From Holophagales bacterium (GTDB lineage: Bacteria; Acidobacteriota; Thermoanaerobaculia; Multivoradales; Multivoraceae): a stretch of DNA of 64,000 bases. Positions 3,597 through 60,287 of this stretch are shown in pieces. The notes beneath the pieces are model-generated. The model saw nothing but the letters and a program-made list of their open reading frames with translations, was not told where the DNA came from and searched no databases. The DNA is taken from positions 62,001-126,000 of the forward strand of contig VXSP01000030.1 of assembly GCA_009837885.1 (NCBI GenBank), read 5' to 3'. The position numbers and the translations under genes were made by a program. Each line of letters starts with the position of its first letter. The stretch's first letter is position 1.

Positions 3597-5303
3597 ATGG
3601 CAAGGGAACGAGGGCTCGGAGCGGCGGGAACCGGCGCCGCAGGACTGGGTGCGCCGGCGTCCCCGCCGGCCGTGGCCGCGAGGCTCCCGACCCGCGGTGG
3701 ACAAGGGCCGCGAAGCGGCGACCATGCTGCGGCGCTGGTGGCCGCCGCCTGGCCCCTGCTGGCCTGCTTCGGCGGGCTGCTCGCGCTCGACCGCGCGGGG
3801 TTCGTTCCCGCCCCGGGCGTCGCGGGCGCTGGCGTCCTCTTCCTGCTCGTGCTGCTCCTGGCGTTCGGCGCGCTGTGGTGGGGACTGCGGCGCCTGGGCG
3901 CGGCGACGGCGGCGGCCGCCGACGTTCCAGTCGCGGGCGTCCTGGCGGTCGCCGTCGTGCTCCGCCTGCTCGCGCTGCCGCTGGCCCCCAGCCTCTCGGA
4001 CGACGTCTACCGGTACCTGTGGGACGGTCGGGTCGCCGCCTCCGGGGCGAACCCGTATCTGCTGACGCCGGACGACGAGAGCCTCGCCGGACTGCGCGAC
4101 GGCTTGTGGGAGACGACCGCGCATCGGGACGTCGCCACGGTGTATCCGCCGTTGGCGCTGGGAATGTTCGCGGGCGCTGCTTCCCTGCCACGACCTTTCC
4201 TGGCGTACAAGCTGGCGCTTGCCGCCGTCGACCTGGCCGGTTGCGCGTTGCTACTGTTGCTGGCTCGCCGTCGCGGCAATTCGTGGATGGCCCTCGCCTA
4301 CGTTTGGAACCCGCTGCTCGTCGTCGAGGGGGCCGGCATGGGGCATGTCGACGTGCTCGGGGCTTCTCTGGTCATCGGCTGCGTGTGGTTGCTGTCGGAT
4401 GGGGGGCGGAGGAAAGGTGGCCGGCCTGACGGCCAGCCCGATTCCGAAGCCGCCTCCGGCGGCAGCCGGCGGGGACGCCGGCGCACCCAGTGTGAGATGT
4501 CGACGGAGTCACAGACTGGGTGCGCCGACGTCCTCGTCGGCCCTCCGAAAGGCACGCGCGAGGCCGAAGGCCTCGCTCCGCCGGGACGCCGGGGCACCCA
4601 GTGGGTGGTGGCCGGGGTGGTCGGTGCGCTTGCTGTGCTGGCGAAGCTCGTGCCTCTGGCGGCGCTGCCTCTCTGGTGGCGGCACGCCGGCGCCCAGCGG
4701 CGGCGCTTTGCGGTCGGCGCGGTCTCGCTGCTGCTGCCGGCGACGGTCGCCGTGCTGCTGTGGGTTCGCGGCGTTCCGCCAGGCCTGGTCGAGTACGCGC
4801 TGCGCTGGGAGTACAACGGCCCTCTCTACGAGCCGCTGTGGCGCCTGATCGGAGCGCTGCGGCTCGACCTGGCCGCTTCCGGGGTCGTCCATCTGGCCCG
4901 GGTCATCTTCGGCGGTGACGTCGAGGCAGCGCCCTGGAGCACGCTCTACTCCTACGCCTATCCGCAGTTCCTCGCCCGCGTCGCGCTCCTGGCCGGCGGC
5001 GCCGTGCTCTGGCTTCGCCTCTGGCGGCGCCGCCCGGGACCGGTCCGGGCGGCGTTCGGGGCCTTCGCCGTCGTCCTCCTGATGAGCCCCACGTTCTACC
5101 CGTGGTACCTGATCTGGATGCTCCCGTGGGCCGCGTTGACCGGCGCCCGCGCCGTCCTCGCGCTCTCCGCGACCCTACCTCTGGCCTACCTTCCCGCCTT
5201 GACCGGAATGCCGTACTTTCCCTGGGTCTACGGCGCCGTCTGGCTGCCCCCGCTGATTCTGCTCGTGCTCGAGCGCCGACGTCCTGTGCCCCCGTCACCA
5301 TGA
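3597..5303 (+). CDS. GT-C fold polytopic membrane glycosyltransferase (mannosyltransferase-like) with in-frame repeat insertion
   Basis: 568-residue polytopic membrane protein. DDVYRYLWDGRVAASGANPY is the acidic first-loop motif of polyprenol-phosphate-sugar-dependent GT-C enzymes (GT87/DUF2029-like); TVYPPLAL and the late FYPWYLIWMLPW segment fit too. About 10-12 membrane helices are visible. Residues about 285-335 (4449-4602) are encoded by three copies of dispersed repeat A, give a hydrophilic Arg/Gly-rich loop, and keep the frame open. Another copy (3644-3670) lies in the N-terminal region, so the true start might be later, for example GTG 3672 directly after it. The gene is divergent from the GT2 gene; a joint role in envelope glycan synthesis is inferred. 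Confidence 0.75.
   Translation: MARERGLGAAGTGAAGLGAPASPPAVAARLPTRGGQGPRSGDHAAALVAAAWPLLACFGGLLALDRAGFVPAPGVAGAGVLFLLVLLLAFGALWWGLRRLGAATAAAADVPVAGVLAVAVVLRLLALPLAPSLSDDVYRYLWDGRVAASGANPYLLTPDDESLAGLRDGLWETTAHRDVATVYPPLALGMFAGAASLPRPFLAYKLALAAVDLAGCALLLLLARRRGNSWMALAYVWNPLLVVEGAGMGHVDVLGASLVIGCVWLLSDGGRRKGGRPDGQPDSEAASGGSRRGRRRTQCEMSTESQTGCADVLVGPPKGTREAEGLAPPGRRGTQWVVAGVVGALAVLAKLVPLAALPLWWRHAGAQRRRFAVGAVSLLLPATVAVLLWVRGVPPGLVEYALRWEYNGPLYEPLWRLIGALRLDLAASGVVHLARVIFGGDVEAAPWSTLYSYAYPQFLARVALLAGGAVLWLRLWRRRPGPVRAAFGAFAVVLLMSPTFYPWYLIWMLPWAALTGARAVLALSATLPLAYLPALTGMPYFPWVYGAVWLPPLILLVLERRRPVPPSP
3644..3670 (-). repeat. Family A dispersed repeat, reverse orientation
   Basis: Core of repeat family A read as ACTGGGTGCGCCGGCG followed by TCCCCGCCGGC, containing the perfect hairpin GCCGGCG/CGCCGGC. 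It lies within the N-terminal coding region of the GT-C gene, where it encodes a low-complexity Gly/Ala/Pro stretch. Confidence 0.8.
4449..4602. repeat. Cluster of three family A repeats inside a coding sequence
   Basis: A full double-hairpin copy is at 4449-4491: GCCGCCTCCGGCGGC, then GCCGGCG-GGGA-CGCCGGC, then GCACCCAGT. An inverted degenerate copy is at 4515-4541 (ACTGGGTGCGCCGACG...CGTCGGC), and a third, forward copy is at about 4578-4602 ending GGGGCACCCAGT. The block sits in frame inside the GT-C glycosyltransferase gene and encodes about 51 residues with no membrane-helix character. Confidence 0.85.
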
Positions 5304-15582: not shown

Positions 15583-15622
15583 ACTGTGTGCGCCGGCGTC
15601 CCCGCCGGCTGCCGCCGCAGGC
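15583..15622 (-). repeat. Family A dispersed repeat after a gene end
   Basis: Reverse-orientation copy: ACTGTGTGCGCCGGCG, TCCCCGCCGGC, then the partial second hairpin TGCCGCCGCAGGC. It begins six bases after a stop codon. The remaining DNA to 15768 holds the leader of the downstream tonB copy, which resembles the leader of the other tonB at 20843-20940. Confidence 0.85.
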
Positions 15623-18829: not shown

Positions 18830-18874
18830 CCGCCTTCGGCGGCAGCTGGCGAGGACGCCGGCGCACCCTGTGTG
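18829..18874 (+). repeat. Family A dispersed repeat at a convergent gene junction
   Basis: Full double-hairpin copy: GCCGCCTTCGGCGGC, then GCTGGCG-AGGA-CGCCGGC, then GCACCCTGTGTG. It fills most of the gap between the pgeF stop and the end of the convergent TPR gene. The second stem tolerates one G-T wobble. Confidence 0.85.
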
Positions 18875-36998: not shown

Positions 36999-37028
36999 GC
37001 CGGCGGGGACGCCGGCGCACCCAGTGTG
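36999..37028 (+). repeat. Family A dispersed repeat between pilus genes
   Basis: Copy of the second hairpin and tail: GCCGGCG-GGGA-CGCCGGC then GCACCCAGTGTG. It is the main content of the 71-base gap between the prepilin peptidase stop and the pilV start. Confidence 0.85.
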
Positions 37029-41799: not shown

Positions 41800-41850
41800 G
41801 CCGGCGGGGACGCCGGCGCACCCAGTGTGCAGAGCGCCGGCGCACCCAGT
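41800..41850 (+). repeat. Family A dispersed repeat, one full and one partial copy in tandem
   Basis: Full copy at 41800-41829 (GCCGGCG-GGGA-CGCCGGC, GCACCCAGTGTG) followed at 41834-41850 by the partial unit GCGCCGGCGCACCCAGT. It fills the gap between two convergent genes and ends three bases before the stop of the UbiA-family gene. Confidence 0.85.
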
Positions 41851-48310: not shown

Positions 48311-48353
48311 ACTGGGTACGCCGGCGTCCTCGCCGGCTGCCGCCGCAGGCGGC
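48311..48353 (-). repeat. Family A dispersed repeat at a convergent gene junction
   Basis: ACTGGGTACGCCGGCG, TCCTCGCCGGC and the second perfect hairpin GCCGCCGCAGGCGGC. It fills the 80-base gap between the convergent biotin carrier and DtxR-family genes. Confidence 0.85.
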
Positions 48354-60252: not shown

Positions 60253-60277
60253 GCCGGCGGGGACGCCGGCGCACCCG
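60253..60277 (+). repeat. Family A dispersed repeat at a convergent gene junction
   Basis: GCCGGCG-GGGA-CGCCGGC followed by GCACCCG. It occupies the gap between the surface protein and the convergent nudC. Confidence 0.8.
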
Positions 60278-60287
60278 GCGAGTCCCG

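Follow-up and report, generated by a model that had tools for sequence, protein, structure and literature searches.

A glycosyltransferase gene with in-frame repeats

The window (the whole 64-kb stretch of DNA analysed, from genome G000) contains at 3597–5303 (+ strand) a gene for a 568-aa glycosyltransferase of the GT-C fold, whose open reading frame runs uninterrupted across several copies of a short hairpin repeat, here called REP. Pfam assigned no family to the protein, and every one of the 21 genomes of the genus had a match to it, that in G013 being weak and distant. The model showed a multi-helix membrane fold (DSSP helices) with an acidic motif, the invariant D136, in the first large loop, and the best PDB matches in Foldseek were the GT-C enzymes AglB, ArnT, PimE and ALG3 (probability 1.00, although weak, with all E values >0.001). 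In the G003 assembly one gene was found twice with equal scores (G003:C19:4001-6535 and G003:C34:36396-38930), suggesting redundant contigs.

The repeat comprised a perfect 7-bp GC stem, a GGGA loop and a flank, GCACCCAGT, which leaves an unpaired foot, GGGTGC, on the opposite strand. Folding z-scores were -3.9 for a single hairpin and -8.2 for an inverted pair.

Comparison with relatives and the model placed a variable loop, 80 codons as extracted (4386–4625, +), between two helices of the enzyme. From left to right this loop contained an inner hairpin, GCCGCCTCCGGCGGC (4449–4463; sequence and folding), which recurred upstream of many other copies; REP copy 1 (4465–4491, +; 18-nt core 4474–4491), reading GCCGGCG-GGGA-CGCCGGC followed by the flank; a 23-nt spacer, GTGAGATGTCGACGGAGTCACAG (4492–4514, +); REP copy 2 in inverted orientation (4515–4541, −; 18-nt core 4515–4532), identified like copy 1 by core match and folding; a further inner hairpin, GCGAGGCCGAAGGCCTCGC (4558–4576), near-identical to a module inside the REP pairs flanking a transposase gene of G005; and copy 3 (4585–4602, +). 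The spacer was found repeatedly between inward-facing REP pairs, in 26 places in six genomes at ≤3 mismatches, four of them in G000. Copy 3 was a resident core, the orthologue of the only copy in G003, with which it had the diagnostic GGGGCACCCAGTGGGTGGTGG in common.

Site states in relatives

Between conserved flanks, the loop measured 77 codons in the window gene and in G019, 12 in G012, G014, G015 and G022, 20 in G003, G004, G006 and G008, 40 in G011 and 101 in G005, where an extra 24-codon near-exact tandem unit was present; all of these states were in frame. One core already stood at the site in G003, G004, G006 and G008. The window loop exceeded that of close relatives by exactly 171 nt (57 codons), a net insertion lying roughly within 4398–4568, with ambiguous breakpoints because the insert and the resident core share sequence. 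The first-pass annotation had described an insert of about 51 residues at 4449–4602 made of three in-frame copies. The insertion and the three copies were borne out, but its size and limits were not, and copy 3 was not newly acquired. Orthologues with shorter loops bore out its proposal that a spreading repeat had become part of a protein loop, and the alignment gave none with the same loop made of unrelated DNA. MAG data are rich in repeats, and an insert of this kind might be suspected of being an assembly artefact, but it occurred at the same site, with ordinary divergence, in the separately assembled G000, G005 and G019, which leaves that suspicion with a negligible probability.

A second in-frame insert, overlooked when the central one alone was annotated, was located by orthologue comparison at approximately 3621–3731 (+; net 111 nt, 37 codons) and contained a REP copy (3644–3670, −) with an exact match to the 18-nt core (3644–3661). 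The window gene had 51 codons before the WPLLACF motif, as against 13–16 in eleven orthologues, and among these twelve sequences the insert was confined to the window gene. The relatives had no resident copy at this site.

Effects on proteins

In the AlphaFold model the central insert was a disordered loop between two helices (pLDDT 40–56, against about 88 or more in the helices). Whether the loop was cytosolic had been raised in the first-pass annotation, and helix alternation in the model would most likely place it on that side. dN/dS was about 0.8 in the insert versus 0.22 in the rest of the gene (pairs G000–G019 and G005–G019), calculated from few sites (in the insert, the pair G000–G019 gave 7 synonymous and 15 nonsynonymous changes). 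The insert probably evolves almost neutrally, its peptide probably having no function of its own.

In-frame copies also occurred in the linkers, loops or tails of four other G000 proteins: an MFS protein with a copy before its second half (loop length varied in G003 and G005 and was shorter in G008), a 3508-aa polyketide synthase (L126:8418-18941, −) with two copies in inter-domain stretches, a GCV_T/Fer2 protein with a copy in a linker that most relatives lack, and an AP_endonuc_2 protein with one at its tail. Copy-free relatives were examined for two of the four, the MFS and GCV_T proteins, and one of the locus comparisons used just those rows that had been read in the right orientation. Copies elsewhere were translated in several frames (GRRRTQ, TGCAGV, DAGAPS, TLGAPA and GTPAHP), indicating that what is repeated is the DNA and not the GRRGRRRTQ-like peptide, which the first-pass annotation had suggested looking for in other proteins. 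Preservation of the frame in at least three species, and an Arg-rich composition that would fit the cytosolic side, are what a functional extension of the enzyme kept by selection might show. Such an extension is nevertheless improbable given the near-neutral dN/dS, the predicted disorder, the absence of the insert from most relatives and the different frames used in other proteins.

Copy number and distribution of the repeat

Eleven matches at ≤2 mismatches were found in the window, against 0.04 expected from shuffles. Besides those in the glycosyltransferase gene, core matches were located at 15583–15609 (−), 18845–18871 (+, directly after a TAG stop), 36999–37025 (+), 41800–41826 (+, with a partial second copy at 41833–41850), 48311–48337 (−) and 60253–60279 (+, diverged). 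G000 had 179 copies (26-mer, ≤2 mismatches) and each of the other 20 genomes of the genus 11–255, so that the repeat was present in 21 of 21, while three other genera of the same family gave 1–3 chance-level matches to the 18-mer. The genus relatives were mostly MAGs labelled Holophagales, Thermoanaerobaculia or Acidobacteria, which we take to be sponge-associated.

Among the matches listed, 96 of 125 copies (77%) were intergenic, intergenic DNA making up about 5%, and on contig C9 the count was 21 of 31 versus 5% expected; these percentages are approximate, with gene calls from an in-house script, and the G000 copies examined (the first 100 exact matches listed, plus contig C9) were a non-random sample. 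Copies near predicted gene starts, where the start site may be wrong, were not taken as genuine. A predicted gene with three copies (G000:C9 45777-48020) was rejected because it probably represents a miscall across an intergenic cluster; its three copies are still included among the 11 counted as “internal”. The family was high-copy and mostly extragenic, as are REP/REPIN families. Inverted pairs were clear around the transposase genes and in the insert, and few adjacent pairs were seen among the family copies fetched. Some copies were enclosed by a pair of outer inverted arms, GCGCGGCAGAA on one side and TTCTGCCGCGC on the other, in the manner of a larger palindrome (L124–L127 on G000:C22 and C25, and G000:C9 149765).

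RAYT genes and the GTGC foot

Thirteen genes for RAYTs (REP-associated tyrosine transposases) were found in 12 of the 21 genomes, and all thirteen had the HVH, W and Y..NP motifs. The exact repeat of the window flanked the RAYT gene of G005 on both sides and that of G015 (locus L177, near a contig end) on one side only; in both relatives a single-copy RAYT gene was flanked by the same REP. At the G010:C86 RAYT locus (L169) a run of N followed shortly downstream.

The G005 RAYT scored above the NCBIfam cut-off of NF047646 and could be aligned with E. coli TnpA-REP (4ER8), the W-Q of the E. coli protein corresponding to W-M here. The Met, which stands where E. coli TnpA-REP has its guide-contacting Gln95, was present as W-M in 13 of 13 RAYTs. 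The hairpins flanking these genes were group-specific in sequence and had the foot GGTGC, with isolated exceptions, for instance GAGTGC in G013; every subfamily seen had a GTGC foot in place of GT[AG]G or CGTC. These two are the commonest REP tags but are not universal, and since other atypical feet have been published, e.g. CnGA in class 3 (PMC6006769), GTGC was treated as a variant and not as an exclusion. W-Q, W-E and other pairs are tabulated in that paper, W-M being absent, and a literature search, with most subscription journals outside its reach, found no GTGC-tagged REP.

No RAYT was detected in G000, either with PF01797 or by searching with the G005 protein, which speaks against a RAYT origin of its repeats, and none was found in eight other members of the genus. 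Some RAYT genes lay at contig ends, and a RAYT may therefore have been lost in assembly. RAYT presence matched repeat copy number only partially across the genus, G003 and G022 having high copy numbers and no detected RAYT. The absence from G000, together with the outer inverted arms on some copies, might point to a palindromic element or MITE that has no relation to RAYTs and is moved by another transposase, but the RAYT genes of G005 and G015 have the identical repeat beside them, and we regard such an element as very improbable.

The same absence could also mean that REPs spread into the gene and grew within it by recombination or slippage between copies, with no transposase acting at the site. 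This competes with the insertion step only and overlaps otherwise with a RAYT-linked origin. The central insert adjoins a resident core and G005 has its extra tandem unit, as such growth would leave them, but the N-terminal insert occupies a site where relatives have no resident copy, and copies are dispersed across the genus and tied to RAYT loci; recombination or slippage is an unlikely source of the insert, though one to be taken seriously.

Proposed origin

The insert is very probably an inverted REP pair with its inner hairpins, from a REP/REPIN family that a RAYT (a Y1 tyrosine transposase) mobilises; an ancestral RAYT would have inserted the pair, which would then have been kept as a drifting disordered loop. 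The RAYT link is supported by a family that is multicopy, hairpin-forming, mostly extragenic and found flanking a single RAYT gene in relatives; tolerated insertion is supported by the shorter site states in relatives, the preserved frame and the other in-frame copies in tolerant places. Movement and cleavage of the REPs by the RAYT are what we infer from the sequences. At a REP hairpin the ancestral enzyme would have cleaved single-stranded DNA, which it would have joined beside the REP core already in the gene. Selection may then have kept only stop-free inserts of multiple-of-three length in a tolerant loop, the peptide drifting as a disordered, most likely cytosolic and probably functionless segment.

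Systems of REP/REPIN and RAYT (TnpA-REP) are known in, for example, Pseudomonas fluorescens SBW25 and E. coli (PMC3116915, PMC8266576, PMC6006769). The present family had in common with them short hairpins bearing a 5′ foot, many copies lying mostly outside genes, inverted pairs (here clear around the RAYT genes and in the insert), and one RAYT per repeat type with its own flanking REPs. It differed in its foot (GGTGC/GTGC versus GT[AG]G or CGTC), in W-M versus W-Q at the guide-contact position, and in that many copies appeared to be single REPs whose inner hairpins varied. By motif, the RAYTs were placed near TnpA-Y1 subclass 2.7 (PMC6006769, Table 1), with [ND]HVH and YIxxNP motifs, a similar length and about one copy per genome, but that subclass has WQ and GT[AG]G REPs where WM and GTGC are found here. 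Intragenic in-frame REPs have been described in Opitutus terrae, Rickettsia conorii and others (PMC3733652); as there, our copies were in frame in unrelated proteins, singly or grouped, and presumably tolerated in loops or linkers, and beyond those we found graded filled and shorter site states across one genus and RAYT-flanking copies in relatives. The first-pass analogy to Rickettsia palindromic elements is in principle a fair one, both being, by description, in-frame palindromes in genes. However, most copies here were intergenic and a RAYT association was visible, and REP/REPIN-RAYT systems are the nearer kin, given the RAYT genes that this repeat flanks in relatives. In-frame REP insertion being of a kind already known (PMC3733652, PMC6006769), the locus is largely explained, the variant tag being the new element.

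It is conceivable, if somewhat short of an even chance, that in a RAYT clade of sponge-associated Acidobacteriota the guide tag became GTGC as Gln gave way to Met at the guide-contact position, and that the REPs of this clade add protein loops by inserting beside REP cores already in coding sequence. Within the genus a single protein loop can be followed from short through intermediate to long forms made by a mobile repeat, and the naturally altered RAYT tag could be used to test how RAYT transposases read their target.
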